Shown piece by piece: positions 20,964 to 40,213 of a stretch of 64,000 nt of DNA. The notes beneath the pieces were generated by a model. That model worked only from the letters and a program-made list of their open reading frames with translations, made no database searches and had not been told where the DNA came from. Within the stretch, counting starts at the first letter, position 1. Every line of letters starts with the position of its first letter. This DNA is from Fusobacterium ulcerans (GTDB taxonomy: Bacteria > Fusobacteriota > Fusobacteriia > Fusobacteriales > Fusobacteriaceae), in assembly GCF_003019675.1 (NCBI RefSeq), contig NZ_CP028105.1, forward strand, positions 248,001 through 312,000, in the 5' to 3' direction. The position numbers and the translations under genes are program-made.

Positions 20964-21878
20964 TTATAAAAGAGAGCTGATTTTATTATTTAATTCTTCT
21001 GAAAATTTGTTTGCTCCTTTCTCATTTAAATGTGTTACATCTTCAAAATATTCAATATTAGAATCTAAGTAATGAGAGTAATCTAAATAATCAATTCCAA
21101 TATTACTTATAAAAAATTTTTTATATTTTTCTACTATCTCTTTTGGATAACATTTTTCTTCTACTTTTCTTAATGGAGCCATTACCATAAATACTTTTAT
21201 ATTATTTTTTTTACAATATTCTAATATATAAAAAAAATATTTTTTTTGTACTTCTAATATTTCCCATTCTCTTTTGACAGTATCAGATAATTGGCCTTTC
21301 TTATTAATTTGTTCATGATACCATCCATTTTCTTCTAATTTATAAGTTTTAATAATTTTTCTATTTTTCATTACTTCTAATAAGGTGTTTAATGAGATTT
21401 TAAATTTAGTAGCCTTTTCTTCAAAGTAAAAATTTAATTTATTGATAAAATTTTTACTATTCTCAAAATCTTTCATATATTCATTGGAAAATTTATTCCC
21501 ATATATATAGTTTCTAGTATCACTAAGAAAAGAAAATTGAAAATAATCTACCCCCATAATTAAATATTTTATTTTTTTATTTGATTTATTTTCTACATAT
21601 AATAATTTATAATACATTTGATTAAAAGAGTCATTATCATGAGCAAAATTATAAAAATTCCCAAATTTTAACTTGTCAGGATTAATTCCTCTATACATTC
21701 TTGAATTTCCCAAAATTATTCCATTATATTTTAGATTTTCAATTCTTTTAAAAGAATACTCTATTTGCTCTTTAGTTGTTAAGCCATATGTTTCTTTTAA
21801 AAATTTTGTTGTCAGAACATTTATTAAAAGAAAAATAAATATTCCTATTAAAATATCACTATAAAAACTTCTCTTCAA
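20964..21878 (-). CDS. SGNH-fold O-acetyltransferase partner protein (membrane-anchored)
   Basis: A 304-residue protein that appears to start with TTG at 21878, 7 bases after AAGGAG. One membrane segment (about residues 8-24) anchors it, with the rest outside the cytoplasm. GNSR (57-60, Ser59) resembles the SGNH block I, and DVTH (Asp280, His283) near the C-terminus resembles the catalytic Asp-x-x-His block. Proteins of this type (AlgX/AlgJ, DltD, PatB-like) accept an acyl group from an MBOAT partner, and an MBOAT gene lies 10 bp upstream. The acceptor glycan is probably the surface polysaccharide made by this locus; that is inferred. Confidence 0.78.
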   Translation of the reverse strand: MKRSFYSDILIGIFIFLLINVLTTKFLKETYGLTTKEQIEYSFKRIENLKYNGIILGNSRMYRGINPDKLKFGNFYNFAHDNDSFNQMYYKLLYVENKSNKKIKYLIMGVDYFQFSFLSDTRNYIYGNKFSNEYMKDFENSKNFINKLNFYFEEKATKFKISLNTLLEVMKNRKIIKTYKLEENGWYHEQINKKGQLSDTVKREWEILEVQKKYFFYILEYCKKNNIKVFMVMAPLRKVEEKCYPKEIVEKYKKFFISNIGIDYLDYSHYLDSNIEYFEDVTHLNEKGANKFSEELNNKISSLL

Positions 21879-23342: not shown

Positions 23343-23510
23343 GTTCGCTTTTATGTATAAAAGAGAACTCTTTATTTTTTGCAAATACTCTTTATTTAAT
23401 AATTTAATAAAAATATTATTAGAATTATTTTTTTAACTTTATTTATTAAAGTTTTTAACTTCTCTACCTTCAAAGGTTTTAAAACTTCGCCTTTATACAT
23501 AAAAGCGAAC
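23343..23510. repeat. Inverted-repeat element A (19-bp ends, GTTCGC type)
   Basis: The left end GTTCGCTTTTATGTATAAA (23343-23361) is repeated exactly in inverted orientation at 23492-23510. Each end is itself a hairpin: the left end continues to GAGAAC (23363-23368) and pairs back on its own start with one mismatch. The 130 bp inside are AT-rich and noncoding. Size and layout resemble a MITE or an intergenic palindromic repeat. It separates the HU-like genes from the MBOAT gene. A similar element lies at 39995-40213. Confidence 0.6.
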
Positions 23511-23520
23511 TCTTTTTTTC

Positions 23521-23802
23521 TCAGTTTATTTCTAATATTTTTGACTGTACAAATTTTATTGTTTTTTTAGGAACTATTTCTCTTACTTCTTTTGAGGTTG
23601 GACTGCCTATTCTTCTTTTTTTTCTTTTTAAAAGTGAAAATGTTCCTTTATTTTTAAATTTTACTTCTTCATCCATAGCTATTACTTCTGCTATAAGGTT
23701 AAATATCTCTTCTATTTCTTCTCTTGCTTCTTTATCTTCTATTGTTTCATCTTGTTCTCTTCTCAATTTCTTGTAATATGATACAAATTCTCTAGTGTTC
23801 AT
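23521..23802 (-). CDS. Divergent HU-like DNA-binding protein (second of a pair)
   Basis: A 93-residue basic protein. The N-terminal half is helical; the second half aligns by eye with the HU/IHF beta-arm. KFKNKGTFSLLKRKKRRIG (48-66) matches the HU strand with its Gly-Thr-Phe turn and Arg-rich arm, SPTSKE (67-72) sits where HU has NPxTG, and KKTIKFVQSKIL (79-90) matches the closing PxFKxGxxL segment. The N-terminus lacks the usual MNKxELI start. Its ATG overlaps the stop of the previous HU-like gene by 11 bases. A role in nucleoid structure or locus control is inferred only. Confidence 0.72.
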   Translation of the reverse strand: MNTREFVSYYKKLRREQDETIEDKEAREEIEEIFNLIAEVIAMDEEVKFKNKGTFSLLKRKKRRIGSPTSKEVREIVPKKTIKFVQSKILEIN

Positions 23803-24103
23803 ATTCTTCCTCCATTAGAGTATTGAGTTCATTTACTTTATCTATCATTTTCATTCTAGGTTTAAATTTAATAACTTTCTTTTCTTCTGTTATCATCATT
23901 TCTCTAGTAGCTAGATTTAATATCTTTCTTGGTTTTACTTCTTTCTTTTCAAATATTCCCCAATCTTTTATTATTACTTTTTCTTCTTCTGCTAAAACAT
24001 CAAAAAGAGCTTTCCAAAAAGAATCTAATCTTTCTTTTGCTTCTCTTATGCTTTTTAGATTCCTTCTTTCTTTGTATAAGGTTAAAAACTCTTTTTCTGT
24101 CAT
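23792..24103 (-). CDS. Divergent HU-like DNA-binding protein (first of a pair)
   Basis: A 103-residue protein similar in plan to its downstream neighbour. Helical residues 1-42 are followed by an HU-type core: KDWGIFEKKEVKPRK (46-60, with Gly49-Ile-Phe where HU has GTF), LNLATREMM at the NPxTG position, and KVIKFKPRMKMIDKVN as the closing strand and helix. It starts 12 bp after the ABC exporter stop with AAGGAAAT upstream, so it is in the glycan operon. The two HU-like proteins differ clearly in sequence and could form a heterodimer like IHF. Function within the cluster is unknown. Confidence 0.68.
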   Translation of the reverse strand: MTEKEFLTLYKERRNLKSIREAKERLDSFWKALFDVLAEEEKVIIKDWGIFEKKEVKPRKILNLATREMMITEEKKVIKFKPRMKMIDKVNELNTLMEEEYEH

Positions 24104-24115
24104 TTTATTTCCTTT

Positions 24116-25834
24116 CTATAATTCCTCTACCGATTTTACTATTCTTCCTACTTCTCCATTACTTATAACAAATATTCTATCACAGTCTTTTAATGTTGTA
24201 AGTCTATGAGCTACTATAATCAAAGTTCTATCTTTTGATACATCATAGATTTCTTTCATTATCTCTTCTTCAGTTTCATTATCTAAGGCTGACGTTGCTT
24301 CATCTAGTACTAATACTTCTGGATTATCATAAAGAGCTCTAGCTATTGCTATTCTCTGCTTCTGCCCTCCAGATAACATTATTCCTCTATCTCCTACTAC
24401 TGTTTTTATTCCTTCTTTCTTCTTTAAAAATTCCCATATTCTTGCTTTTTTTAACGATTCTATTAATCTTTCTTCATTGTATTCTCTATTAAATACAACA
24501 TTATCTGCTATTGTCCCATCAAAAAGATAGACTTCTTGTGGTATATATCCTATGCTTTGTCTCCAATATCCAATATTTTTATCTTCTAACTTTGTATCAT
24601 CTAAATATACATTTCCATTTTTAGGTTTATATAGTCCTGTGATTAAATCTACAAGAGTTGTTTTTCCAGAGCCTGATTCTCCTACAAATGCTACTTTTTC
24701 TCCTTTAAATATATTTAGATTTATATTTTTTAGAACCTCTTTTCCTTTTTCAAATTCAAAACATACATCTTTTAATTCTATATTTTTATTAAACTCTATA
24801 GGATTATTTTCAATATTTTCAACTTCGTTTTCTAATTCATCAACTATGATATCAAGAGATTTTCTATAAAAAAGAATTCCTTGGTAATGAGTAATAATCC
24901 TATTTACTGATGGCAGTATTCTATATAACCCTATAAAAAATATTGATATTATTGGCATTATTTTAGCTAATCCATTTTCATCATACATTATTACAGAAAA
25001 TATTATTAAAACTACCACTATTGAAAATCCTAAGAATTCTAAAATTAATCTTGGTACTGGTTGAGAAGACATATACTTTTTATCAACTTTTATATATTTA
25101 TTACAAGAATTTTGAAAATTATTCATTATTTTCTCATCATTTGATTGTAATTTTATAAACTTATAGTTCCCAAATGTTGAGCCAATTATTTGATAATACT
25201 CTTCTATAGCTTTACTTCTTTCTATTCCCCATTTTTTTGTTTTATTTAATATTAGGTGTTTTATAAGAAGTATATTAATCCCCATAAATACAGTAACAAA
25301 TAAAGTTATTTTTAAATCAACATATAACATTACCAAATATATAAAAAATACTACACATATTTCACTTAACATCATTAAGAAATTTTGAATCAATATAACT
25401 AATAAATTAGCTTCTGTTGTTATATTTTTCATAAGATCATTTGAGTTCTTTTTTATAAAGTTTTGATATGGATATTTCAAATAATTCTCCATTAACTTAC
25501 ATGTAAATTGATAATATGAATTTCGAGAAAAAGATACTAAAATATAATTAAAAAATATATTTAAAATATTTTTTATTAAAAATATTATTATTATAGTTAT
25601 TCCAAAATAAAATATAAAATTCTTAGTACTTTCAAAGTTAAAAAAACTATATATTACTTTTAAATATTTATTCTCAAATATTATATTTTGATTAGTTACC
25701 ATTGCCATAAATGGAACTATTGTTGATAGTCCTACTACTTCACTTAAAGAAATTATTATTGAAAAAACTGTTATTCCTAATAGCTTTTTCATTTCATTTT
25801 TAGAGAATAGTTTCTTTATTTTTTTTATCATCAT
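24116..25834 (-). CDS. ABC exporter, fused membrane and ATPase domains (MsbA/PglK-like glycolipid flippase)
   Basis: A 572-residue half-transporter. Residues about 1-320 hold six membrane segments. The ATPase domain has Walker A GESGSGKTT, signature LSGGQKQR, Walker B VLVLDEATSALDN and the switch HRL motif. It lies directly after the nonulosonate genes in a glycan operon that has no wzx flippase, wzy polymerase or wzm/wzt pair in view. The likely substrate is therefore an undecaprenyl-linked oligosaccharide, as for PglK. The substrate is an inference from context. Confidence 0.85.
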   Translation of the reverse strand: MMIKKIKKLFSKNEMKKLLGITVFSIIISLSEVVGLSTIVPFMAMVTNQNIIFENKYLKVIYSFFNFESTKNFIFYFGITIIIIFLIKNILNIFFNYILVSFSRNSYYQFTCKLMENYLKYPYQNFIKKNSNDLMKNITTEANLLVILIQNFLMMLSEICVVFFIYLVMLYVDLKITLFVTVFMGINILLIKHLILNKTKKWGIERSKAIEEYYQIIGSTFGNYKFIKLQSNDEKIMNNFQNSCNKYIKVDKKYMSSQPVPRLILEFLGFSIVVVLIIFSVIMYDENGLAKIMPIISIFFIGLYRILPSVNRIITHYQGILFYRKSLDIIVDELENEVENIENNPIEFNKNIELKDVCFEFEKGKEVLKNINLNIFKGEKVAFVGESGSGKTTLVDLITGLYKPKNGNVYLDDTKLEDKNIGYWRQSIGYIPQEVYLFDGTIADNVVFNREYNEERLIESLKKARIWEFLKKKEGIKTVVGDRGIMLSGGQKQRIAIARALYDNPEVLVLDEATSALDNETEEEIMKEIYDVSKDRTLIIVAHRLTTLKDCDRIFVISNGEVGRIVKSVEEL

Positions 25835-25841
25835 TCTTTCC

Positions 25842-26525
25842 TTATTTATTTTTTATTAAATACTCAGCTATTTTAAAATCTAGTTCATCATCTATATCTA
25901 TTGAATTTTCTTTTTCCATTATATATGCATAACTATCTTTATAATAAAAATCTTGATACTTTTTAAAATATTCTACATTCGCTATATAAAGAGCCCCATT
26001 AATTCTATAATATGTTTCTAACTCTTGCCTATTTTTATTTACATCAATTCCTTTTAAAAAAGAATCCATCCTTCTTTCTTCATTTAAAATATTTGCCCAT
26101 AGAGGTGAATGTTCCATTTCACAAACTGAAACAACACTACTTGCTTTTTTTTCTAAGTACATTTTATAAGCTTCTATAATATTTTTTTCTGTTCTTAAAG
26201 GTGATGTTGGCTGCAACATTATAAATGAATCATATTTTTTTTCTACTCTATTTAAAATATCTAATATTACATCACTACTCTTAGCGTTATCATTTGCTAA
26301 TTTTTTATCTCTTAAATATGGTACACTTCCTCCATATTTCTTTGCTATTTCTGCATATTTTTCTGAATCTGTTGATATTATTATATCCTCAAAAATTTTA
26401 CTGTTTTGAGCTGCTTCTATAGTATAAGCAATCAATGGTTTCCCATTCATCATCTTTATATTTTTATCTTTTAATCCTTTTGAACCACTTCTAGCTGGAA
26501 TTATTACTAATATCTTTTCTTTCAT
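25842..26525 (-). CDS. neuA: CMP-nonulosonate (sialate/legionaminate) cytidylyltransferase
   Basis: A 227-residue NeuA/LegF-type enzyme starting at MKEKILVIIPARSGSKG; GTGAGG upstream fits this ATG better than a GTG four codons earlier. The CTP-binding loop is IPARSGSKGLKDKNI (9-23), and LQPTSPLRTEKNI and DIDDELDF are further conserved blocks. It activates a nonulosonic acid as its CMP-sugar. Known family members act on Neu5Ac, legionaminate or pseudaminate; the neighbouring LegB and LegC types favour legionaminate here. Confidence 0.9.
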   Translation of the reverse strand: MKEKILVIIPARSGSKGLKDKNIKMMNGKPLIAYTIEAAQNSKIFEDIIISTDSEKYAEIAKKYGGSVPYLRDKKLANDNAKSSDVILDILNRVEKKYDSFIMLQPTSPLRTEKNIIEAYKMYLEKKASSVVSVCEMEHSPLWANILNEERRMDSFLKGIDVNKNRQELETYYRINGALYIANVEYFKKYQDFYYKDSYAYIMEKENSIDIDDELDFKIAEYLIKNK

Positions 26526-26533
26526 TCTATGCC

Positions 26534-27688
26534 TCACTTAATATCATAAAATTCTTTTTTTAAATTAATATTTTTAATATTTTTTATTATATCAACTATT
26601 TTAAAACTAACTTCTCCATTTCCATAAGGTGAAACAGTTTTTTGAACTTTTTCTTTATATTCATCAGTCAACATTATTTTTATCTTTTCTATTATTTCTT
26701 CTTTTATTGGATTACAGTTCAAAGTTGAAGAGCTTTGAATTCTTCCCTTTTGTCTATCTCCTATATTAAGATTTCCTACTTTTAAATATGGTAATTCTAC
26801 TATTCCACTTGAAGAATTTCCTATTAATCCTTTTGAATATTTTAAAATGCTAAAATATTCTTCAACAGTCAGGGAAGAAAATACTTTATATTTATCATTA
26901 TTTTTTTTAGAAAACTCTTCTATTTTTCTATTAATTGCCCTTCCACCAGAATCTGCATTACCTTTTATAAAAATAACATCTATATTTTCAATTTCTATTG
27001 CCTTTAATAATTCATTTAACTGAGATTCAGCTGTATTTTTTTCTAATGTTACTGGATGAAAAATTACAACAAATATCTTACTTGTGAATTTTATATCCAA
27101 TTTTTCTTCAAGTTCATTTTTAGGTATTATTTTTAAATTTTTTATATTTTCTAGTCCAATAGCCCCAACATTAAAAACTCGTTCTGGACTTTCTCCAAGT
27201 TGAATTACTCTTTTTCGATATTCTTCAGTGCTTATAAAATGTAAGTAACTCATCTTAGTTATACAATGCCTAAAAAATTCATCATATGCCCCTTCTGTAG
27301 TTTCTCCTCCATGTAAATGGCAAACAGGAATTTTTAAAATACCTGCACATGAAACTAGAGAAAAAATTTCAAATCTATCTCCTAAAACAACTATTAAATC
27401 TGGAATTAGTCTTTCTAAAGCTTCTGAAAATAATATCATTCCTAAACCTACTGATTTGCAAATTCCACTGTCCTTATCTGAGCTTAATAAAATTTCTATT
27501 TTTTCATCTATTTTAAATCCATCTTCTTCTATTTGTTTATAAGTTAATCCAAATTCAGGAGATAAATGCATTCCTGTCACCAAAATCTGCAATTGTAATT
27601 GTTTCTCTTCTTTTATTCTTTTTATTAATGGTTTTAAAAGTCCATATTCAGCTCTAGTTCCAGTAACTATACATATCTTCTTTATCAT
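26534..27688 (-). CDS. neuC: NeuC/LegG-type UDP-sugar 2-epimerase, hydrolysing
   Basis: A 384-residue GT-B-fold epimerase. GTRAEYGLLKPLIKRI (8-23), VTGMHLSPEFG (37-47) and HLHGGETTEGAYDEFFRH mark the hydrolysing NeuC/LegG branch, as opposed to the non-hydrolysing WecB. It releases a ManNAc-type sugar (or its 2,4-diacetamido-6-deoxy analogue) from UDP for condensation by NeuB. The gene overlaps neuB by 4 bases. Confidence 0.92.
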   Translation of the reverse strand: MIKKICIVTGTRAEYGLLKPLIKRIKEEKQLQLQILVTGMHLSPEFGLTYKQIEEDGFKIDEKIEILLSSDKDSGICKSVGLGMILFSEALERLIPDLIVVLGDRFEIFSLVSCAGILKIPVCHLHGGETTEGAYDEFFRHCITKMSYLHFISTEEYRKRVIQLGESPERVFNVGAIGLENIKNLKIIPKNELEEKLDIKFTSKIFVVIFHPVTLEKNTAESQLNELLKAIEIENIDVIFIKGNADSGGRAINRKIEEFSKKNNDKYKVFSSLTVEEYFSILKYSKGLIGNSSSGIVELPYLKVGNLNIGDRQKGRIQSSSTLNCNPIKEEIIEKIKIMLTDEYKEKVQKTVSPYGNGEVSFKIVDIIKNIKNINLKKEFYDIK

Positions 27689-28686
27689 ATCTCTATCAAC
27701 TCATCTTCTTCAAAATTTCTAATAGAACTCTTCCCTATAACTTCATCCCACTGCATTGGTGAAATTCCATTTCCTGGTCTCTTTACAGTTAAGTTTTCTT
27801 CTGTAAAAATTTCTCCTTTTTTTATATTTTTTTTAGCTACTATGCTTTTTCTAGCTATATCTTTATTCTTTTTTTCAGATTCACTTACTTCTTTTTGTTT
27901 TTTTCCTAAAGCTTCTTCTATATTTCTTATCCCTGTTACCATTTTCTTTAGTTCTTCTGGTTCAAGACTTGCTTTGTGATCTGGTCCTTCCATATTTTTA
28001 TCTAAAGTAAAATGTTTTTCTATTATTCTTGCCCCTAAAGCTACTGCTGCTATAGAAACTTCTATTCCCAAAGTATGATCTGAATACCCTACTTCTACAT
28101 TAAATTTTTCTTTTAATAACTCCATAGCTCTTAAATTAACATCTTCCATAGGTGTTGGGTATTCTGTATTGCAATGTAAAATTAATATTTTTTTATTTTC
28201 TTTTTTCAATATCTCTACAGCTTTACTTATTTCACACAAATCCGACATTCCTGTAGATAAGATTATCTCATCTGCTACTTCTGCTATTTTTCTTAAATAA
28301 GGAAGATTTGTTATTTCCCCAGAAGGTACTTTCCATATTTTCATTCCTAATTTTTTTAAAAATTCTATGCTATCCAAATCAAAGGGAGTTGATAAAAACT
28401 TTATTCTCATTTCATCACAATATCTTTTTAGTTCTATAAACTGTTCAAAAGACAATTCTAGTTTTTTTATCATTTCTAATTGGGATTCTTTGTTATTTGT
28501 ATTTAATTTTTGATAGTTAGCTTTTTCTGTATTTCTAGAAACTAAATTTTTAGCTATAAATGTTTGAAATTTAATAGCATCCACTTTAGCTTCTACGGCT
28601 TTTTCTACCATTTTCTTAGCTAACTTCAAACTTCCATTATGATTTACTCCTGCTTCTGCTATTATAAAAACTTTATTTTTCTTCAT
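27685..28686 (-). CDS. neuB: Nonulosonate synthase (NeuB/LegI type)
   Basis: A 333-residue enzyme. The TIM-barrel domain has AEAGVNHNGS, KFQTF and GYSDHTLGI followed by EKHFTLDKNMEGPDHKASL. A C-terminal antifreeze-like SAF domain (about 275-333) begins RKSIVAKKNIKKGEIF. It condenses phosphoenolpyruvate with a ManNAc-like sugar. The start at 28686 is set by GGA with 6-base spacing; it overlaps the end of neuD. The sequence alone cannot separate NeuB from LegI. The neighbouring dehydratase and aminotransferase argue for a legionaminate-type substrate. Confidence 0.92.
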   Translation of the reverse strand: MKKNKVFIIAEAGVNHNGSLKLAKKMVEKAVEAKVDAIKFQTFIAKNLVSRNTEKANYQKLNTNNKESQLEMIKKLELSFEQFIELKRYCDEMRIKFLSTPFDLDSIEFLKKLGMKIWKVPSGEITNLPYLRKIAEVADEIILSTGMSDLCEISKAVEILKKENKKILILHCNTEYPTPMEDVNLRAMELLKEKFNVEVGYSDHTLGIEVSIAAVALGARIIEKHFTLDKNMEGPDHKASLEPEELKKMVTGIRNIEEALGKKQKEVSESEKKNKDIARKSIVAKKNIKKGEIFTEENLTVKRPGNGISPMQWDEVIGKSSIRNFEEDELIEI

Positions 28687-29329
28687 ATTCATTCCTTTTT
28701 ATCACTTTAGCTGGATTTCCAACAACTGTACAATTATCTTCAATATCTCTTATAACTACTGTTCCTGCTCCTATTATTACATTTTTTCCTATTTTAATAT
28801 TTGGTTTTATAATGCTCCCTGCTCCTATCCATGAATTTTCCTCAACTTTTACTCCACCACATAAAATTACTCCTGGAGAAATATGAACATAACTTTCTAT
28901 AACATTATCATGTTCTATTATTGCTCCAGTATTTATAATTACATTCTCTTTTATAATGGTAAAAGAATTTATTGTAGTATTTGCCATAACTACTGTGCCT
29001 TTTCCAATCTGTACATTTATTCCTATAATAGAAGAGGGATGAATAATATTTAATAATTTTATAGTTTGGTATTTTTGTGATATTTTTTTTCTTGTTAAAT
29101 TATCTCCGATAGCTATAACAAAGTAACTTTCTTCTTTTAGTTTTTCTATTAAAGAAATATTTCCTAATATAGGAAATCCAAAAATTTCCTTTTTATCTAA
29201 ATTTTTAAAATTGTCATCTAAAAAGCCTAAAATATTTATTTTTTCATTCAACAATTCTTTTCTTTTTAATAAAATATCTAAAATTACCTTTGCATGTCCT
29301 CCTGCTCCAATAATTACAATATCTTTCAT
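28673..29329 (-). CDS. neuD: NeuD/LegH-type sugar O- or N-acetyltransferase
   Basis: A 218-residue left-handed beta-helix acetyltransferase. The N-terminal Rossmann-like part starts IVIIGAGGHAKVILDIL, and the C-terminal half shows hexapeptide repeats (IGKGTVVMANTTINSF, GAGSIIKPNIKIGKNVIIGAG) with an acceptor-site His in EHDNVIESYVHISPG. In the legionaminate route this position adds the N-acetyl group at C-4 of the UDP-sugar; in sialic acid clusters NeuD is an O-acetylase. Here the former is favoured because of LegB/LegC, but this is not proven. Confidence 0.85.
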   Translation of the reverse strand: MKDIVIIGAGGHAKVILDILLKRKELLNEKINILGFLDDNFKNLDKKEIFGFPILGNISLIEKLKEESYFVIAIGDNLTRKKISQKYQTIKLLNIIHPSSIIGINVQIGKGTVVMANTTINSFTIIKENVIINTGAIIEHDNVIESYVHISPGVILCGGVKVEENSWIGAGSIIKPNIKIGKNVIIGAGTVVIRDIEDNCTVVGNPAKVIKRNEYEEK

Positions 29330-29344
29330 TTTTCCTCTACTTTC

Positions 29345-30517
29345 TCAACTTTTATATTTTTTTAATTTTTCTATTACTATATCTACCTCTTCCTCAGTAA
29401 GATTTGTACTACATGGTATATTTAATATTCTATCAATGTAATATAGAGATTTTTCCATTTCATAGGCTTCATTATTTAGATAAGGTTTCTGTTGATGAAT
29501 GAGTCCCCATATTGGTCTAGACTGTATATTTTCTTCATTCAACTTCATTAAAAGTTCATCTTTATTTAATCCATATTTTTCTTTATCTACTAATAGAGAA
29601 TAAAACCAATGGTTTGATCTGATATTCTTATTAAAAGTCATTAGTTTCAGTCCTTCTATTTTTTCTATTGCTTCTTTATATCTTTTATAGTTTCTAATTT
29701 TTATATTTATAAACTCCTCAAGCTGATCTATCTGTTCTGTTCCTAAGGCAGCTTGTAGATTAAGCATTCTGTAGTTATACCCAATTTCATCATGAATAAA
29801 ATATAGTGGGTCAGTTTTTGCTTGCACTGATAAAAATCTTACTTTATCTAAAAGTTCTTGGTTATTTGAAACAACCATTCCTCCCCCACCAGTAGTTATT
29901 ATCTTGTTTGCATTGAAAGAATAAACTCCAATATCTCCTATTGTTCCTGCAAATTTTCCTGTGTATCTTCCTGATATATAATAAGTTCCTAATGCTTCTG
30001 TTGAATCTTCTAATACTTTTAAATTATACTTTTGGGCTATATCCATTATTTTTTCCATATCAGCCATATTTCCAAAAACATGGACTACCACTATTACTTT
30101 TATTTGCTTTTTAGTTTTCTTGTTATAAAGTTTTCCCTTTATTATTTCACATTCTTCTCTACAAAATTTTTCTAATTTTATTGGGTCTATACAAAATGTA
30201 TCATCACAATCTATAAATACTGGTTGTGCTCCTAAATAAGTTATTGGATTTACTGCTGCAATAAATGTTAATGTAGGGGCTATTACTTCCTCATCTCTTT
30301 CTACTCCCAATACTCTCAAAGCTGTATGAAGTCCTGCTGTTCCACTTTGTATTCCCACTGCTTCTTTTACTCCTACATATTTAGCTATTTTATCTTCAAA
30401 TTCACTTATAAATCTTCCTCCAGTTGATACCCATCCACTCTCTAAACATTCACTTAGATTTCTTAGAATATTTTCTTTCCCCAGATTTGGAACTGATAAA
30501 TTTATTACTCTTCCCAT
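29345..30517 (-). CDS. legC: Nucleotide-sugar aminotransferase (LegC type, PLP)
   Basis: A 390-residue DegT/DnrJ/EryC1-family enzyme. I chose the ATG at 30517 (MGRVINLSVPNLGKENI) because GGGGGA lies 6 bases before it. The PLP lysine is in FNANKIITTGGGGMVV. EDSTEALGTYY and the opening NLSVPNLG block resemble LegC aminotransferases rather than the PseC or WecE types. It would aminate the 4-keto sugar made by the upstream dehydratase. It follows that gene by 16 bp. Confidence 0.82.
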   Translation of the reverse strand: MGRVINLSVPNLGKENILRNLSECLESGWVSTGGRFISEFEDKIAKYVGVKEAVGIQSGTAGLHTALRVLGVERDEEVIAPTLTFIAAVNPITYLGAQPVFIDCDDTFCIDPIKLEKFCREECEIIKGKLYNKKTKKQIKVIVVVHVFGNMADMEKIMDIAQKYNLKVLEDSTEALGTYYISGRYTGKFAGTIGDIGVYSFNANKIITTGGGGMVVSNNQELLDKVRFLSVQAKTDPLYFIHDEIGYNYRMLNLQAALGTEQIDQLEEFINIKIRNYKRYKEAIEKIEGLKLMTFNKNIRSNHWFYSLLVDKEKYGLNKDELLMKLNEENIQSRPIWGLIHQQKPYLNNEAYEMEKSLYYIDRILNIPCSTNLTEEEVDIVIEKLKKYKS

Positions 30518-30533
30518 TTTCTTTTCCCCCATT

Positions 30534-31943
30534 TTATTTTGATTCTTTATATGTTGGAACTATTAATTTTAAAATATTTTTTATTTTCTCATTATTATAT
30601 TCATTTAATGATTCTTTTAATTTTTCTAATAATTCTTCTAAATTATTGTTTTCAGATTTTAATTTAGCTATATATATCTTCTGTGATTCAGTTTTTTCAC
30701 AATGTTTTACATCATAAAGTAATTCCTCATATAGCTTTTCTCCTGGTCTAAGTCCAGTTATTTCTATACCTATTTCTTTTTCTAATCCTGATAATTCTAT
30801 CATTTTCTTTGCTAAATCTATTATTTTTATTGGTTCTCCCATATCAAGAACAAAAACTTCTCCCCCATTGCCAAGGCTTCCTGCTCTTAATACAAGTTGA
30901 CTCGCTTCAGATATTGTCATAAAATACCTTATTATATCTGGATGAGTTACTGTTAAATTTTTTCTTTCTGCTATCTTCTTTTTAAAAATTGGAATAACAC
31001 TTCCATTGCTTCCTAAAACATTACCAAATCTAACAGCCATAAATTTTGTTTTTCCTTTTTCATTATAGTGTTCCACAAGCATTTCAGTTACTCTTTTAGT
31101 TGTTCCCATAACACTTGTAGGATTTACTGCTTTATCTGTTGAAATTAAAACAAACTTTTCCACTCCATTTAATATTGAACTTTCAATTAGATTTTTAGTT
31201 CCATATATATTATTTTTTACAGCCTCTTCTGGGTTTCTCTCCATTAACGGCACATGTTTATGAGCTGCTGCATGAAATACTAATTGAGGTTTATATTTAT
31301 CAAAAAGATATTCCATTTTTTTCTTATCTCTTATATTCCCTATTTCAATATTCAATTTAATTTCTGGATATGTTTCTCTTAAAAAAAGTTCTAGAAAATA
31401 TAGATCATTTTCATTTATATCCAACAAAATCAATTCCTTAGGATTATACTTTACTATCTGTTTTGACAACTCACTTCCTATTGATCCTGCTGCTCCTGTA
31501 ACTAGTATCTTCTTATTTTCTAAAAAAGTTTTTATCTGTAAAATATTATGCTGGACTACTTCTCTTCCTAATAAGTCTTCTATTTCAAAATCTTTTACTT
31601 GCGAGAAAAAATTCTTTGACATCATAAGTTGGGACATATTAGGAATAATTTTTATTTCTATCTTATTTAAATTTAATACTTTAATAAGTTTTTCTAAATC
31701 TTGTTTTGATATTGACGTACTAGCTATTATACAAATATCTACTTTATTTGATTTTAAAAATTTTTTTAAATTGTCACTTTTATCTTTTACTTCTATTCCT
31801 AAAAATTTTTTCCCCACTTTAAAATCATCATTATCCAAAAACCCTACAACATTATATTGAATTTTATCTTCTACTATTCCAGCAGCCACAGCTTTTCCTG
31901 CATATCCTGCTCCTATAATTAGTATCTTTTTTTTCATATTCAT
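30534..31943 (-). CDS. legB: UDP-GlcNAc 4,6-dehydratase, soluble FlaA1/WbpM-like (LegB role)
   Basis: A 469-residue protein. An N-terminal CoA-binding-like Rossmann domain (IIGAGYAGKAVAAG) is followed by a short-chain dehydrogenase domain with GAAGSIGSELSKQI near residue 153, the HAAAHKHVPLMERNP block and NPTSVMGTTKR at the active site. It lacks the four N-terminal membrane helices of WbpM/CapD and is cytosolic. It makes the 4-keto-6-deoxy sugar feeding LegC. Its ATG overlaps the previous stop by 4 bases. Confidence 0.88.
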   Translation of the reverse strand: MNMKKKILIIGAGYAGKAVAAGIVEDKIQYNVVGFLDNDDFKVGKKFLGIEVKDKSDNLKKFLKSNKVDICIIASTSISKQDLEKLIKVLNLNKIEIKIIPNMSQLMMSKNFFSQVKDFEIEDLLGREVVQHNILQIKTFLENKKILVTGAAGSIGSELSKQIVKYNPKELILLDINENDLYFLELFLRETYPEIKLNIEIGNIRDKKKMEYLFDKYKPQLVFHAAAHKHVPLMERNPEEAVKNNIYGTKNLIESSILNGVEKFVLISTDKAVNPTSVMGTTKRVTEMLVEHYNEKGKTKFMAVRFGNVLGSNGSVIPIFKKKIAERKNLTVTHPDIIRYFMTISEASQLVLRAGSLGNGGEVFVLDMGEPIKIIDLAKKMIELSGLEKEIGIEITGLRPGEKLYEELLYDVKHCEKTESQKIYIAKLKSENNNLEELLEKLKESLNEYNNEKIKNILKLIVPTYKESK

Positions 31944-33079
31944 AATTTATCTCCATTAATAAATTGTAAAATACTATCTTTAGCAGATTTTAAATTTATT
32001 CCATCTCCAAGATATTCATTATAATATTTTTGATATTTCTCTTTGTTTATCCTTAATTTTGGTATATTCTTATAAGCAAAAACATCCATATTAATAATTA
32101 TTATATCTAATACTTCTGCTATTTTTTTTACTTTTGATTTCATAAATTCTGAGAAATCATTGTTTTCTATTAAAATAATTGCTTTATTTTCTATCGTTCC
32201 TAATCCTATAGTAGTACTATAACTAGCTAAAATAAGTTTGCTTTTTTTTATTTCAGTTGCTGTCTGATTTTTTACTATTTTTCTTCCATTAAATGTTTCA
32301 AGTGAGTAATTAGATTTTGGATGAGCTGCAATTATAATTTTTGCACTAAATATTTTTTCTATATAATCAAAAAAATTATTAAGCTGTTTATAATATTTCT
32401 TTGAATTTATTTTTTTTTCTCCAAGAATATCAAAATCTGGATGATTTGGTAAATCTTGATCTAAAAAAACTATTTGATTTTCTTCTTTTTCTATATCGTT
32501 TATTTTCAAATAATTTTCAAGATCCTCTGACATTACTGCAATTTTTTCAATTTTTTTGTTTTTTAAAATTCCATCCTTAAATTTTATCCCAGCATATAAT
32601 ATTTTTATATTTTTTTCATTATATTTACTTAGCCAATTAAGTTTTTGACATTTAAGTAAGAACCTTATATGCAATATTACTTTTTTTATATTTAAAAGTT
32701 TTTTTAATCTTTTTTTTAAAAGATCCTTTCCATCTATTTGTGGAGTACATCCCCATTTCAGAAAAATAATTTTAATCTTTTTTTGAAAAACTTTTAAATA
32801 AAAATCTATTATTTCTTTTTCAATTCCTCCTTCTTTTACAAAAATAGAATCTATTGAAATCTTATCTATTTCATTTAATAATTCTATTTTTGTTTTAAAT
32901 ATTTTTTCATTTTTTTGAATAATTCTATTGTAAATTACAGGTTCATTTTTATAAAAAATATAATATAATGACCAATATTCATATTCTATTTTATTTTTTT
33001 CAAATTCATACATAAACAATCTTTTTTTATATGCTTCATTTAATGGAAGAAGCCCTACTACAATTATTTTTTTTTTCAT
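31940..33079 (-). CDS. Putative GT-B-like glycosyltransferase with HP and ST motifs
   Basis: A 379-residue protein I do not recognise with certainty. It has no signal peptide or clear membrane segment. An N-terminal Rossmann-like start (KKKIIVVGLLPLNEAYKKR), a central LDQDLPNHPDF, then IIIAAHPKSNY and LILASYSTTIGLGTIENKAI form a pattern seen in sialyltransferases and related GT-B enzymes: a His-Pro motif followed by a Ser/Thr pair that bind the CMP-sugar. It sits immediately before the CMP-nonulosonate genes, so transfer of that sugar is a reasonable guess. Very AT-rich codon use. Confidence 0.6.
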   Translation of the reverse strand: MKKKIIVVGLLPLNEAYKKRLFMYEFEKNKIEYEYWSLYYIFYKNEPVIYNRIIQKNEKIFKTKIELLNEIDKISIDSIFVKEGGIEKEIIDFYLKVFQKKIKIIFLKWGCTPQIDGKDLLKKRLKKLLNIKKVILHIRFLLKCQKLNWLSKYNEKNIKILYAGIKFKDGILKNKKIEKIAVMSEDLENYLKINDIEKEENQIVFLDQDLPNHPDFDILGEKKINSKKYYKQLNNFFDYIEKIFSAKIIIAAHPKSNYSLETFNGRKIVKNQTATEIKKSKLILASYSTTIGLGTIENKAIILIENNDFSEFMKSKVKKIAEVLDIIIINMDVFAYKNIPKLRINKEKYQKYYNEYLGDGINLKSAKDSILQFINGDKL

Positions 33080-33097
33080 ATTAATTTCACCTTAATT

Positions 33098-33823
33098 TTA
33101 TTTGATTTTATTTATCCATAACAAACTTTCTCTAATTAATATAATAAAAGTAAATATTATATTTAATAAAGCGTAAAAAATTATTATATCAGTATTAAAA
33201 AAATATAACAGTGTACTAAATAATATAAAATTAGGATAAATAGTAAATATTTCAATAATTCTTTTTATTTTTTCTTTTATTTTTTTTGAAAAATCTACTT
33301 CTTTTTCTCTGATTTTTGTTTCTTTTTCCTTTAAATTTTTTATTAAATAGAATGCATAAATATTTCTAGAATATAAATCCAAATAAGTTATCAGAAAAAA
33401 AATAGTTACTATTAAAGTACTATTATATTTTTTAGCATCCAACATAGATATTAAAAGTGAAATAGAAAATAATGGGTGATTGATTATATGAGCTGTGTAA
33501 TCCAATTCTTTTCCATATTTTGAAAAATTGTTTGTTTCTCTTGCTACTTCCCCATCTGAACAATCCAAAATAAACCATAGTTGCATAAAAATAACCCCTA
33601 TTAATTTTAAATAAATATTTGAAAAGCTAAAAAATATCGCTCCTATTATTCCTGAAATTATCATATGAATTGTTATTGTATTAGGTACTACTTTTTTCTT
33701 TATATAAAATGCTGAAAAATATGGAGAAATTCTTTTAGAAATTAAAAATCCTATTAAAAAATCTGATTTAATCGTTATTTTATTTGTTTGTTTAAGTTTA
33801 ATAATAATATCATAATATGACAT
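33098..33823 (-). CDS. CDP-alcohol phosphotransferase-family membrane protein
   Basis: A 241-residue protein with about six membrane segments. The family signature is seen as DCSDGEVAR followed by GKELDYTAH: Asp-x2-Asp-Gly-x2-Ala-Arg, then Gly-x3-Asp, but the final Asp is replaced by His. Relatives transfer a phospho-alcohol from a CDP donor to an acceptor. Inside a glycan operon this suggests a phosphate-linked side group or phosphopolyol, but the donor is unknown and the changed residue makes activity uncertain. It starts at 33823 after AAAGGA. Confidence 0.75.
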   Translation of the reverse strand: MSYYDIIIKLKQTNKITIKSDFLIGFLISKRISPYFSAFYIKKKVVPNTITIHMIISGIIGAIFFSFSNIYLKLIGVIFMQLWFILDCSDGEVARETNNFSKYGKELDYTAHIINHPLFSISLLISMLDAKKYNSTLIVTIFFLITYLDLYSRNIYAFYLIKNLKEKETKIREKEVDFSKKIKEKIKRIIEIFTIYPNFILFSTLLYFFNTDIIIFYALLNIIFTFIILIRESLLWINKIK

Positions 33824-33903
33824 TCTATATTCCTTTCTATGCTTTCATTTATTTTATATTTAATTTAGTTTAAAAATTTTTAAACTCCTAAAAAATTAGT
33901 TTT

Positions 33904-34485
33904 TTATTTCTGTAAATTGTATATTTTTATATACTCTTTAAAAGTTTGATGCTTTTTATCTTTTTCTGATAAAACTATCCCCTCTTCTTTCAATCCATAT
34001 TTTTCAAAATTCCAATTAATATTTATCTCTTTATCATTCCACATTATTCCCGAATCATATTGTGGCATATAAAAATCTGTACATTTATATTGAAATTCTG
34101 TTTCATCTTCTAAAGTGAGAAATCCATGTGCAAAGCCTTTTGGTATAAAAAATATTTTCTTGTTTTCTGCACTTAATTCTATTCCATACCATTTCCCATA
34201 TGTACTGCTGTTTTTTCTAATATCTACAGCTACATCATATACAGAACCTTTTAGCACTCTTACAAGTTTTCCTTGAGGATGCTTAGTTTGAAAATGAAGC
34301 CCTCTTAGTACTCCTTTTTTAGATTTAGAATGATTATCTTGTACAAATTCTTCGAATATCCCAATTTCCTCAAATTCTTTTTTGTTATATGTTTCCAGAA
34401 AAAATCCTCTTTCATCTCCAAATATAGTTGGTTCTAATATGTATAATCCTTCTATTCCTGTTTCTATTTTTTTAAATTTACTCAT
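33904..34485 (-). CDS. rmlC: dTDP-4-dehydrorhamnose 3,5-epimerase
   Basis: A 193-residue cupin enzyme. RGLHFQTKHPQGKLVRVLKG contains the catalytic His and the substrate-binding residues, with YDVAVDIRKNSSTYGKW and IPKGFAHGF following. It converts dTDP-4-keto-6-deoxyglucose to the rhamnose precursor. It starts 14 bp after rmlA. The partners rmlB and rmlD are not in this window. Confidence 0.95.
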   Translation of the reverse strand: MSKFKKIETGIEGLYILEPTIFGDERGFFLETYNKKEFEEIGIFEEFVQDNHSKSKKGVLRGLHFQTKHPQGKLVRVLKGSVYDVAVDIRKNSSTYGKWYGIELSAENKKIFFIPKGFAHGFLTLEDETEFQYKCTDFYMPQYDSGIMWNDKEININWNFEKYGLKEEGIVLSEKDKKHQTFKEYIKIYNLQK

Positions 34486-34499
34486 ATCTTCCCCTCTAT

Positions 34500-35363
34500 C
34501 TATTTGATGAGATCCATCAAATATTCTCCATATTTAGATTTAAGCAGTGGCTTTGCTAGTTCACATACTTTTTCTTTTGTTATCCATCCATTTCTATATG
34601 CAATTTCTTCAAGGCAAGCCACCATTACTCCCTGTCTGCTTTGAATAGTTTTTACATAGTTTGCTGCTTCTAGTAGAGCTTCATGCGTTCCTGTATCAAG
34701 CCATGCCATTCCTCTTCCTAGACTTGTTACATTTAAAGTTCCCTCATTAAGATACATCTCATTTAGTGTTGTTATTTCCAATTCTCCTCTTTTTGAAGGT
34801 TTTACTTTTTTAGCTTTTTCTACTACTGTATTGTCATAGAAATATAGTCCTGGTACTGCATAATTAGATTTAGGCTTCTCTGGTTTCTCTTCTAATGATA
34901 TTGCTCTATTATTTTCATCAAATTCTACTACTCCAAAATCTCTAGGATTTTGCACATAATAGCCAAATATTGTTGCGCCTTTTTTTCTTGATTCAGCTTC
35001 TTTGAGCATTCCTGTAAAACCATGACCATAGAATATATTATCTCCAAGAACTAAAGCACATGAATCATTTCCAATAAAGTCTTCTCCTATTAAAAATGCT
35101 TCTGCTAGTCCATTAGGCTGTTCCTGTACTGCATAACTTAGAGATATACCAAAATCAACCCCAGTCTGTAATAACTCTTCAAACATAGGAAGGTCTCTTG
35201 GAGTAGAAATAACTAAAATATCTTTTATTCCAGCTAGCATTAAAACTGATAAAGGATAATATATCATTGGCTTATCATATATTGGTGTTATCTGTTTTGA
35301 TATTGATTTCGTTATTGGATAAAGTCTCGTTCCGCTTCCTCCAGCTAATATTATTCCTTTCAT
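34500..35363 (-). CDS. rmlA: Glucose-1-phosphate thymidylyltransferase
   Basis: A 287-residue nucleotidyltransferase starting at [25 protein letters not shown] at 7-base spacing favours this ATG over one two codons earlier, which overlaps the previous gene. The dTTP loop GGSGTRLYP and the metal-binding LGDNIFYG and [10 protein letters not shown] blocks are present. It makes dTDP-glucose, the first step to dTDP-rhamnose or other dTDP-deoxysugars. Confidence 0.95.
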
Positions 35364-35365
35364 CT

Positions 35366-36433
35366 TCATACCTCTGTTTCCATAATTTCTTTTACTGCTT
35401 CTAAATAACCATATTCAAATTTTTCATCAGGTTCTAAGTACATCCCTTCAGCCCATTCATTCCATGCATTTAAAAAAATATATTCTATATTTTTTTCTTT
35501 CATTATTTTTTTTTGTTCTAATAAATACTCTTTAAACAATTTTGGAGTATTCCCTTTAATCACATATCCTCTTCGTCCATGTCTTGATGTATTATCCCAA
35601 CCTGTAAATACTCCTGGAAAACATTTTTTATTGCTATATTTTTGTGATAATTCTAAACTATTTTTCATAAAAAATTCATATTCATATTTAGAGGGAAAAT
35701 ACAAATAATTTTTTTTAAAAGAAGATTTTAATTTTTGAAAAATTTTTTGAAATAAACTTCTTCTTTCTAAAGAAAGTAATGGTTCTCTGATAGCAACAGC
35801 TTCACTTTTCGATGATATTTTTTGATTTTTTAAACTATTTAGAGATTCTATTATATATATTCCAGAAAAATTTATTTCTTTGCATTTCTTATCAAAAAAT
35901 GCTATTATTTCATCTATTTTATTTATATCTTTAGGATTATATATCATTAAAATAGGTTTGTTTTCTATTTTAATATACCTTTCATCTTTAAAAAAATTTT
36001 TTAGATATTTAAAATGTTCTTCCCAGTCTTCTTCCACTCCATATTCTTGTTTTATAAGAATTTCATTTAACCCATTCCAAGTTTTTTTCCAAGAGTGATT
36101 AGCCCAACAAAAACAAAAATTTTGTTTTATTTCTTTCCATTTAAGTAAATTTTCTGCTGGTTTCTCCAATATTTTTTTTCCTTTAAACCAATAATGATAA
36201 TAACAAAACCCATATATTCCATACTCATTTCCTAATTTAGTTTGCCATTCTATTGTTTTTTTATTTAATAAATTGTAATAATTATCATTTAATGGCTTTA
36301 GTGGTTGATTTTGTCCTTTGAATAATTTTTTTCCATTTTTGACATTTGTCCATTCTGTAAAACCTTTTCCCCACCAAAGATTATTTTCTTTAATTTCATG
36401 AAATTGTGGCAAATAATATGCTATTATTTTCAT
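35366..36433 (-). CDS. WbsX-like glycan biosynthesis protein (GH99-like domain)
   Basis: A 355-residue soluble protein. It opens with [27 protein letters not shown], and later [27 protein letters not shown] closes the domain; both are hallmarks of the WbsX/GH99-like family found in O-antigen and capsule clusters. The family is often annotated as glycosyltransferase or lipopolysaccharide biosynthesis protein, but its reaction is not established. AAGGAG precedes the start. It lies 3 bp upstream of rmlA's chosen start. Confidence 0.85.
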
Positions 36434-36502
36434 TAAACTTATCTCCTTATTTTTCTTTTGTTTAAAAAAATTATATCTATATGATAAAATTGTAATAAGA
36501 GT

Positions 36503-37501
36503 TTAAATATATTTTTGTATTTTAATTAGTATTTTTAAAACACCATAGCATAACTTTGGACTTAATTTATAAAGTAAAATTAATATTTTATAAAAAAAAT
36601 ATTCTTTTTCAAAAATAAATTTCATATTTTGAATATTTTTTTCATATTTTCTTAATTCTTTTAAATAAATACTTTGTTCTATTTTTGTTGATTTTTTTTT
36701 AACTAACTCATTAATATTTCCAATAAATGTTATTGCATAAAAAAGATAAAAATATTTTTCCATTGTCTTTTTCTTTATAGAACTTAAAGTCCTTAAATTT
36801 TGTAATGATTTTAATGTATCTAGTTTCTTTAAACTTATTTCTTTGTTCATAGCTGAACCTTGTCTTTGAAAATAAATAAAATAACTTTTATTTACATAAT
36901 AAAAATTCTCAGAAAAATTGATAACTCTAATTAAAAAATTATAATCCTCACTATATGTTAATTTTTTATCAAATATTATTTTATTTTCTTCTATTATTTT
37001 TTTTCTTATTATATTCGTTCCTGTTACAGCTTTACTTATTCTTCTTAAAAACAAATTTTTCAATATAAACTCTTTTGAATAATTTCCTTCTTTTATTTTC
37101 CTATTTCTTTTTTCATACAATTCATTATTTTTAGCAATAATATATGAAAAAAATAATATATCTGGTTCTTCTTTTTTTAATATTTCTGCTGTTTCTGATA
37201 AAAAATCATTTGTTATGTAATCATCTCCATCTAAAAAATAAATATATTTTCCTACTGCTATTTTGATTCCTTCATTTCTTGCCTCAGAAACTCCTGAATT
37301 TTTTTTATTGATTACATTTATTCTTTTATCTTTTTGAAAATATTCATCTAATATATTTTTAGTTTTATCTGTTGAACCATCATTCACTAAAATTAATTCA
37401 AAGTCATCAAAGGTTTGAGTTAAAATTGATTTAATTGTTTTTTCTATATATTTTTCTACGTTATAACATGGTACTATTATTGAAAAAAAAACTTTTCCCA
37501 T
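36503..37501 (-). CDS. Family 2 glycosyltransferase
   Basis: A 332-residue GT-A enzyme. SIIVPCYNVEKYIEKTIKS opens the nucleotide-binding fold; VNDGSTDKT and YFLDGDDYI supply the conserved Asp residues and the metal-binding DxD-like pair. The C-terminal third is basic and helical, without clear membrane segments. It adds one sugar to the repeat unit; donor and linkage cannot be read. AAGGAG at 9-base spacing sets the start. The 69 bp after it may hold a weak internal promoter. Confidence 0.88.
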   Translation of the reverse strand: MGKVFFSIIVPCYNVEKYIEKTIKSILTQTFDDFELILVNDGSTDKTKNILDEYFQKDKRINVINKKNSGVSEARNEGIKIAVGKYIYFLDGDDYITNDFLSETAEILKKEEPDILFFSYIIAKNNELYEKRNRKIKEGNYSKEFILKNLFLRRISKAVTGTNIIRKKIIEENKIIFDKKLTYSEDYNFLIRVINFSENFYYVNKSYFIYFQRQGSAMNKEISLKKLDTLKSLQNLRTLSSIKKKTMEKYFYLFYAITFIGNINELVKKKSTKIEQSIYLKELRKYEKNIQNMKFIFEKEYFFYKILILLYKLSPKLCYGVLKILIKIQKYI

Positions 37502-37622
37502 TATATATCTCCTTTATAATTACTTATAACAGAAAAAAATTACTTTTTTTAGTTTATAAAAAAATTGATCTATAAATTTTTTTCATCTATTTTCTTCCTT
37601 TGTATTTTTATTAATTTTTTAT

Positions 37623-38393
37623 TTAAATCCAGCCCCATTTATCGAAATATTTTATGGCTGATTTTATATGTTCCCACATCATTTTTTTATTCTTAAAAGA
37701 TTCCTTTGCATGATTATGAAATATTTCTACTTCTGGATAAAAAATAATTTTTGATATTTCTCCTATTCTTCTACACAAATCAAAATCTTCCATATACATA
37801 AAGAATCTTTCATCAAAGCCATTTACTTTCACAAATATCTCTGTTCTTAAAAACATAAAACACCCTGATAACAATGGAACTTCCCTTATTTTCTCATACC
37901 CTAAATCTCTCATTTCATATAAATAGTCTTGTTTTTCTATTATTTTTTTAAAAGGACAAAATCTCCTTAAAAATAAATTCATTGGAGTTGGATATCTTTT
38001 ACATAAATATTGAATCTCTCCATTAGGATGCTTAACTAATGGCATTAATTGCCCAATATCCTTATTTAATTCCATATATTCAAAAATTTTTTCCAATACT
38101 CCTCTATCAAAATAAATATCTGGGTTTATTATCAAATGATATTTAGAATTATTTTTTATTTTTTCTATGGTTTTGTTATGTCCATATCCATATCCTCCAT
38201 TACAATCATTAAACATATATTCTATTCTCTGATCATTTAAATTTAAAATTTCAACTTCTAAATCATTACTAGGTGAGTTATCTGAAATCCAAACTTTTAC
38301 TTTTAATTTTGTATTCAGAAAACTATTTAATATTTTTTTTAATTCTTCTTTGTTAGTTTTGTAAGTTACAATACTAGCTGTAATATCAAACAT
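37623..38393 (-). CDS. Family 2 glycosyltransferase (rhamnosyltransferase-like)
   Basis: A 256-residue GT2 protein starting at MFDITASIVTYKTNKEEL; a TTG seven codons upstream lacks a ribosome site. WISDNSPS, NGGYGYGHN, INPDIYFDRG and MYMEDFDLCRRI are the conserved blocks of the WbbL/RfbF-type enzymes, many of which transfer rhamnose. With rmlA and rmlC nearby, a dTDP-rhamnose donor is plausible. The start lies 4 bp beyond the stop of the sugar-phosphate transferase gene. A 121-bp AT-rich gap follows. Confidence 0.87.
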   Translation of the reverse strand: MFDITASIVTYKTNKEELKKILNSFLNTKLKVKVWISDNSPSNDLEVEILNLNDQRIEYMFNDCNGGYGYGHNKTIEKIKNNSKYHLIINPDIYFDRGVLEKIFEYMELNKDIGQLMPLVKHPNGEIQYLCKRYPTPMNLFLRRFCPFKKIIEKQDYLYEMRDLGYEKIREVPLLSGCFMFLRTEIFVKVNGFDERFFMYMEDFDLCRRIGEISKIIFYPEVEIFHNHAKESFKNKKMMWEHIKSAIKYFDKWGWI

Positions 38394-38397
38394 ATCT

Positions 38398-39994: not shown

Positions 39995-40213
39995 GTTCGC
40001 ATTATTACAATAATGAGAACTTTTTCTCTTCCAAAACTCAATGAAATCGTTCTAACATTTCTTAAAAATGTCAAATTATAGGTTTTTTTAGTATTGACAA
40101 TATTCTATTTTAGTAGTATCATTTCACTATACTAATCTATAATTCTAAAAAGTTTCGCGTATAAATTTTTTGAAAAAAATTTATACAGGACGCCTTTTTG
40201 TAATAATGCGAAC
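39995..40213. repeat. Inverted-repeat element B (14-bp ends, GTTCGC type)
   Basis: GTTCGCATTATTAC (39995-40008) recurs exactly in inverted orientation at 40200-40213. The left end continues into a self-hairpin ending GAGAAC (40015-40020) and then CTTTTT, the same plan as the left end of element A. The interior carries a plus-strand promoter and a 13-bp stem (40159-40171 with 40074-equivalent partner at 40174-40186). It lies upstream of the glycan operon. A nonautonomous mobile element or a paired terminator structure are both possible. Confidence 0.55.
40094..40122 (+). promoter_or_regulatory. Strong plus-strand promoter in the gene-free stretch
   Basis: A perfect TTGACA (40094-40099), a 17-bp spacer and TATCAT (40117-40122). 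No coding gene lies downstream on the plus strand for several kilobases, so the product is expected to be a noncoding transcript. Just upstream, ACATTT (40055-40060) and AAATGT (40066-40071) form a 6-bp inverted repeat that might be an operator. Confidence 0.6.

Follow-up and report, generated by a model that had tools for sequence, protein, structure and literature searches.

Tandem HU-type protein pairs linked to predicted invertible promoters of surface operons in Fusobacterium ulcerans

The HU family, invertible promoters, phase-variable capsules and autotransporters, and one HU gene within a capsule operon are all known kinds of element. Invertons have reportedly been surveyed on a large scale by Jiang et al. 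in 2019. The one precedent for an HU gene in a capsule operon is PG0121 of Porphyromonas gingivalis, which is co-transcribed with the K-antigen capsule operon and whose mutation lowers capsule transcription (PMC3969353). In Escherichia coli, IHF is essential for the inversion of the 314-bp fimS element by FimB and FimE, and the element is frozen without IHF (PMC9993118). Autotransporters are unusually numerous (32-44) in Fusobacterium varium and F. ulcerans, according to a report whose text mentions neither phase variation nor DNA-binding proteins (PMC5720691). In a partial literature search, we found no published description of invertible promoters in Fusobacterium, nor of some 22 tandem HU pairs within a genome-wide set of such promoters.

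We analysed a 64,000-nucleotide stretch of the F. ulcerans genome (the window; C1:248001-312000 of a 3,537,675-base genome in one contig, C1), in which a surface-glycan operon is followed by two small genes on the same strand:

24116-39708, minus strand: surface-glycan operon, annotated by Pfam for its eight 5' genes (seven matched) and read by eye for the rest
5' part of the operon (Pfam): initiating sugar transferase, glycosyltransferases, dTDP-sugar genes, WbsX and CDP-alcohol transferase
Later part of the operon (by-eye sequence resemblance): NeuB/NeuC/NeuA-type nonulosonate-like pathway and ABC exporter
23792-24103, minus strand: HU-A, the leading protein of the pair (103 aa, PF00216), member of the A subfamily, with no NP motif in its arm
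23521-23802, minus strand: HU-B, second protein of the pair, 93 aa, PF00216, arm-tip proline kept (SPTS)

The two frames share 11 bases, and 12 bp separate the stop of the ABC exporter gene (24116-25834, minus strand) from the start of HU-A. Both proteins match Pfam Bac_DNA_binding (PF00216) above its gathering cut-off of 22.4 bits, with 54.0 bits for HU-A and 38.9 bits for HU-B, and both also match PHROG 379. The HU family is the only Pfam family above cut-off in either protein, and these matches reveal no homology to UpxY or UpxZ. Single-chain AlphaFold2 models (pLDDT 92 and 85) predict the HU fold for both, with two N-terminal helices, a beta saddle and an arm, and their best Foldseek matches in the PDB are HU and IHF chains (best E 4e-6 for A and 2e-5 for B). 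A sequence-only reading of this DNA had described two small HU/IHF-type proteins, and this description holds: the ORFs are real, and profile searches and structure prediction of each protein alone return an HU/IHF match. The helical N-terminus that it had called unusual is formed by helices 1 and 2, a normal part of the HU fold. Matches to the IHF-alpha and IHF-beta equivalog models (himA/hip) are weak, at 21-30 bits against cut-offs of 111-120. Judged by these profile scores, the window pair is an IHF-like arrangement, not IHF proper.

The pair is not a local oddity but one of 22 tandem pairs in the genome. PF00216 has 56 matches genome-wide, 55 of them above the cut-off, which form 32 clusters: five canonical-type single HUs and 27 non-canonical clusters. 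An A gene is followed by a B gene in 22 of the 27 (21 AB and one AAB, with B truncated in one), and the remainder are lone A (n = 4) or lone B (n = 1) genes. In a tree, A and B form separate subfamilies that remain distinct across four genomes, and the DNA-intercalating proline motif at the arm tip (NP/SP) is present in 76 of 78 B proteins and 3 of 78 A proteins. A and B are nearly always retained as a pair, and a heterodimer of A and B is plausible from their sequences. The A and B trees mirror each other (r = 0.88), a value uninformative on interaction because linkage alone predicts such a correlation.

Among 98 Fusobacteriota genomes, high-scoring A/B proteins were found only in six of the 12 genomes of the genus (G000 and G025-G029), and none of the 86 genomes outside the genus has A/B pairs. 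HU matches number at least 47 each in G000, G026, G027 and G028, 15 in G029 and 1 to 8 in the others. An A-profile scan of genome contigs under a strict pattern filter matched one Fusobacterium metagenome-assembled genome, a result that does not imply absence elsewhere. Two plasmid-sized contigs of G028, C2 and C3 (L096 and L094), carry A-type HU genes, and C2 also carries two small tyrosine recombinases.

Thirteen of the 22 tandem pairs lie 17-145 bp downstream of an autotransporter gene (identity confirmed by PF03797, one of them checked singly), three stand at the end of glycan loci (the window, L020 and L031) and one follows a FadA-like cluster. The HU pair was therefore rejected as a general marker of glycan loci, since autotransporters precede most pairs. 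The family as a whole thus occurs mostly away from glycan loci, an outcome that the sequence-only reading had named as refuting its view, whereas the window's own subfamily is almost wholly confined to them. Co-expression of the pair with the glycan genes, as first proposed, is supported as a prediction by the gene spacing, by the same layout at this genome's other two glycan loci and by synteny of such loci in related genomes. The accompanying remark that HU proteins are not standard members of glycan operons was largely right, the exception being PG0121, co-transcribed with a capsule operon (PMC3969353).

Two site-flanked elements occur in the window, one before the whole glycan operon and one after the HU pair, ahead of an O-acyltransferase gene:

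39995-40020: operon-proximal site of the glycan invertible promoter, core TTACAA
40188-40213: operon-distal site of the glycan invertible promoter, core TTACAA
40021-40187: invertible segment of the glycan element
40094-40122, plus strand: promoter TTGACA-N17-TATCAT, located in the invertible segment and directed away from the glycan operon (OFF here)
23485-23510: 26-bp site of recombination type, 10 bp beyond the stop of HU-B
23343-23368: inverted partner of this site, just upstream of the MBOAT gene
23369-23484: 116-bp segment between these two sites, predicted invertible, in the same orientation in L031 and L086
21889-23322, minus strand: MBOAT O-acyltransferase (PF03062), starting 20 bp past the second site
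20964-21878, minus strand: next gene downstream of MBOAT (304 aa), unmatched in Pfam; possibly, to judge by eye alone, an acyltransferase partner

The sites at 23343-23368 and 23485-23510 share the core ATGTAT, with 0 expected in shuffles, and no clear promoter was recognised within 23343-23510. A half-site-like sequence (ATTTCTATACATAAAGAAGAGC) at 39640-39662, near the 5' end of the first glycan gene, is possibly a chance match or a decayed site. Since the HU pair stands at the end of a promoter-switched operon, it is predicted to be expressed with that phase-variable operon.

As counted by pattern searches and in individual retrieved stretches, the near-palindromic 26-bp site, with 10-bp arms (GTTCGCNTTT / AAANGCGAAC) around a 6-bp centre, has 31 copies in the genome at three mismatches or fewer; a reversed control pattern gave 0 matches in the same search. 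The sites stand in inverted pairs, 142-198 bp from start to start, with one exception of 876 bp. In this exception (L011 3130-4031), an IS200-like transposase sequence inside the switch accounts for the length, and the autotransporter gene behind it is split into two frames. Strand exchange by tyrosine recombinases of the Xer/Fim type needs matched 6-bp centres. With the centre left free in the local site search, the two centres were identical in 23 of 23 pairs of this genome, against 3.8 expected when second sites were shuffled, and in 53 of 54 pairs over all HU loci examined; three more candidate pairs, each of whose sites had 5 mismatches, were discarded as chance matches. Between loci the centres vary (ATGTAT, ATATAC, GTGTAT, TTACAA, ATCTAT and others). 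The sole pair of the 54 with unequal centres (ATACAT and ATCTAT; L061 14474-14650) is perhaps a chimaera that arose when adjacent tandem autotransporter units recombined. In 47 of the 54 elements, one direction holds a promoter that has a 17-bp spacer and scores 10 or more, a score reached by 4.6% of shuffled segments per strand.

Both orientations of these elements are seen between paralogous loci in the assemblies. The window glycan element (39995-40213) is 96% identical to its counterpart at the L020 locus (L138) when inverted and 65-66% identical unflipped, near the level of shuffles, while the flanks match unflipped (0.87 and 0.79, versus 0.62 and 0.64 in shuffles) and the half-sites are swapped exactly at the centre. 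The counterpart at the L031 locus (L139) matches the window element unflipped, at 93%. A second case is provided by L028 and L030, which are 88% identical when inverted, with flanks at 0.83 and 0.89 unflipped. On this evidence the site-flanked segments are invertible, that is phase-variable, promoters. Because of the inverted and unflipped matches among the three glycan elements, the L020 glycan operon is read as ON in this assembly and the window and L031 operons as OFF; most autotransporter elements are also OFF. Terminators or REP-like elements were rejected as identities of the repeats on the grounds of the matched centres within pairs and the inverted paralogues, and a terminator scan returned none. 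The initial suggestion of a link to phase variation and to the flanking repeats is well supported in this respect, the repeats being interpreted as recombination sites of invertible promoters.

The switches are linked to the HU pairs. For 24 of the 31 sites, a non-canonical HU cluster is found at a distance of no more than 5 kb. Conversely, 15 of the 27 non-canonical clusters have a site within 5 kb, where rotation of the positions predicts 1.5; the highest count in 5000 rotations was 16, on a par with the observed 15, and this maximum is so high because sites and HU clusters are both clustered. None of the five canonical-type HUs is within 5 kb of a site. At L024, L042, L045, L057, L077 and L089, the invertible promoter stands directly before an HU pair with no cargo between, and at L093 the switch sits between the HU pair and a divergent glycan operon. 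The site is absent from 94 of the 98 Fusobacteriota genomes, and the four genomes that have it are the same four with the large HU expansion, a coincidence in close relatives that may be one event. G025 and G029 have HU pairs and lack the 26-bp site, and nothing convincing was found among inverted repeats near G029-type pairs. In this genome, 9 of 27 HU clusters have no site within 8 kb. The opposite case, switched loci with no HU pair, is seen at L134-L137, L140-L146 and L150-L153, and therefore the pair is not needed in cis. Such exceptions in both directions led us to reject any strict rule tying each switched locus to an HU pair or each HU pair to a switched locus. The cargo of the HU-less switches comprises autotransporters, a patatin-like phospholipase, an outer-membrane barrel and a glycan locus:

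L134 5900-6131, L135 6400-6612 and L136 5741-5973: HU-less site pairs, adjoining a patatin-like phospholipase, an outer-membrane beta-barrel protein and a second glycan cluster

Upstream of many switched autotransporters or FadA-type loci, we also observed a recurring module of a 276-aa unknown protein, an IstB/DnaC-like ATPase, an HTH_17 protein and a 116-aa coiled-looking protein, which may be a mobile or duplicating unit:

L019 11437-13322 and L018 2437-3958, also L014, L017, L032 and L149: 276-aa/IstB/HTH_17 module

As to the recombinase, the genome encodes nine tyrosine recombinases and one serine recombinase. A serine invertase acting on a hix-like 26-bp site is not favoured, as the sole serine recombinase is in a 504-aa frame. 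Two of the tyrosine recombinases are Fim-sized, one of 198 aa in a FadA/HU-pair locus (L103) and one of 189 aa:

L104 1396-2355 (G000:C1:3006230-3007081): 189-aa tyrosine recombinase, 117 bp upstream of a canonical HU gene

By coordinates, a tyrosine recombinase of about 190 aa adjoins an HU gene in 10 of the 12 genomes of the genus, with the gene order read at L104. This makes the 189-aa enzyme a suggestive candidate for an HU partner; it is not a proven switch enzyme, because the adjacency is also found in genomes without the 26-bp site. FadA-like genes, an HU pair and the 198-aa tyrosine recombinase occur together in one locus (L015 8243-12394, L050, L071 and L090), and in G027 this 198-aa recombinase is degenerate.

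We tentatively propose that A and B form an IHF-like heterodimer acting in trans on the inversion and/or the promoter activity of the switches, to which we assign a probability of about 0.42. HU-A and HU-B would be the two subunits of an IHF-like DNA bender translated from the 3' end of the glycan operon, which itself would be switched by the invertible promoter at 39995-40213. With the segment facing the operon, the glycan genes and the HU pair would be made together; in this assembly it faces away. Action in trans is proposed because not all switches carry a pair, and the targets would be the genome's short (142-198 bp) invertible promoters. A site spacing in this range is near the persistence length of DNA, and a strong bender helps inverted sites to meet. 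By bending the segment, the pair would help a small tyrosine recombinase to join two sites near the bending limit of DNA, and it may also, or instead, set promoter strength at the invertible segments. In this way, the output of one locus would act back on the switch that controls it and on the switches at other surface loci. Against this proposal, the canonical HU proteins of the genome could already supply bending, and the switched loci that lack a pair, the HU clusters far from any site and the site-less pairs of G025 and G029 also speak against it.

The main rival, not exclusive with a role in inversion, is cross-locus control of transcription, in which the pair from an ON operon represses or activates other glycan and autotransporter promoters so that few loci are expressed at once, with no part in recombination. 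Such a pair would do the work that UpxY/UpxZ do in Bacteroides (PMC7315117). It accords with the way the subfamilies track locus class: the glycan-class A proteins form a single well-supported set of 12 rows, and locus context changes 12 times on the A tree versus 33.6 in shuffles, a figure to which near-copies contribute. It also accords with the HU pairs that are the sole product directly behind an invertible promoter, with the single ON and two OFF glycan loci of this assembly, and with the reduced capsule transcription of PG0121 mutants (PMC3969353). However, HU proteins usually bind with little sequence specificity, an unsystematic search met no conserved operator, and mutual exclusion goes beyond what one assembly can show. 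We regard this reading as somewhat less likely than the main proposal.

A second alternative is that the genes are unremarkable HU duplicates, which spread as autotransporter operons were duplicated and whose products have a general role in the nucleoid or in RNA binding. Pair and autotransporter are indeed duplicated as tandem units at L060, L061 and L084. The association nevertheless also covers loci of the glycan, FadA and stand-alone types, none of the five canonical HUs is close to a site, and A and B remain separate subfamilies in four genomes, which renders this explanation quite improbable.

Finally, the pair and the invertible promoter might serve as constant flanks for swaps of glycan cassettes, with the proteins in a general HU role only. 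Glycan loci occupy the same chromosomal places across genomes with the pair at the end and different glycan cargo (L040/L058/L081/window; L031/L047/L059/L086; L020/L039), and L045 retains the promoter and HU pair but has no glycan genes. At the DNA level, glycan-class pairs from different loci and species are 90-97% identical, with orthologues no closer to each other than paralogues; the pair copies have therefore mixed. Cassette exchange through constant flanks is thus likely, and it is compatible with a role for the proteins. As a complete account it is still less probable than simple duplication, given that dN/dS among the glycan-class copies from four genomes (about 0.09 for A and 0.12 for B) means that both A and B are selected as proteins, and that the conserved A/B asymmetry and the stand-alone switched pairs would be left unexplained.

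Taken further, the in-trans action of an IHF-like heterodimer would allow some 20 locus-specific, phase-variable HU heterodimers to form a combinatorial switchboard, each pair recognising a class of invertible promoter and setting its orientation or strength. We think this extension unlikely; if true, the present surface coat would decide the next one. More broadly, the data predict that most autotransporters of F. varium and F. ulcerans are promoter-switched and mostly OFF in assemblies, alongside several alternative surface glycans, which would directly explain antigenic heterogeneity. An HU expansion within switched operons would represent a new route of inversion control, in which the bending factor is encoded as cargo of the switch. 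Because some 20 further pairs exist, many of them in flip-switched surface operons, our results suggest that paired DNA-bending proteins help to run antigen switching in this fusobacterium.

Compared with HU and IHF (DNABII) proteins at large, the pair shares the profile, the predicted fold and a two-gene A/B layout reminiscent of IHF, and differs in forming about 22 tandem pairs in one genome that diverge from the canonical HUs, with A mostly devoid of the intercalating proline. In Bacteroides, several alternative glycan operons with invertible promoters likewise each carry a small pair of putative regulators, UpxY and UpxZ. These two, an antiterminator and the protein that inhibits it, are encoded where the operon begins, whereas the HU pair is of an unrelated family and stands at the operon end (PMC7315117). 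UpaE of uropathogenic E. coli is an autotransporter under an invertible promoter flipped by tyrosine recombinases (PMC6083910). It differs in being a single locus. We know of no operon-encoded HU pair for the UpaE switch. PG0121 is also a co-directional HU gene at the 3' end of a surface polysaccharide operon with an inverted repeat at the operon's 5' end; there, a single HU gene at one locus accompanies a 77-bp inverted repeat that its report treats as a stem-loop, in contrast to the pairs, many loci and predicted invertible promoters described here. fimS, whose inversion requires an IHF-type protein (PMC9993118), resembles the present elements as a short invertible promoter, and this genome has small tyrosine recombinases of about 190-200 aa. 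Different from fimS, a single switch with 9-bp repeats served by the host IHF, the system in F. ulcerans would comprise more than 20 switches, each flanked by 26-bp sites, with HU pairs among the genes of the switched operons.
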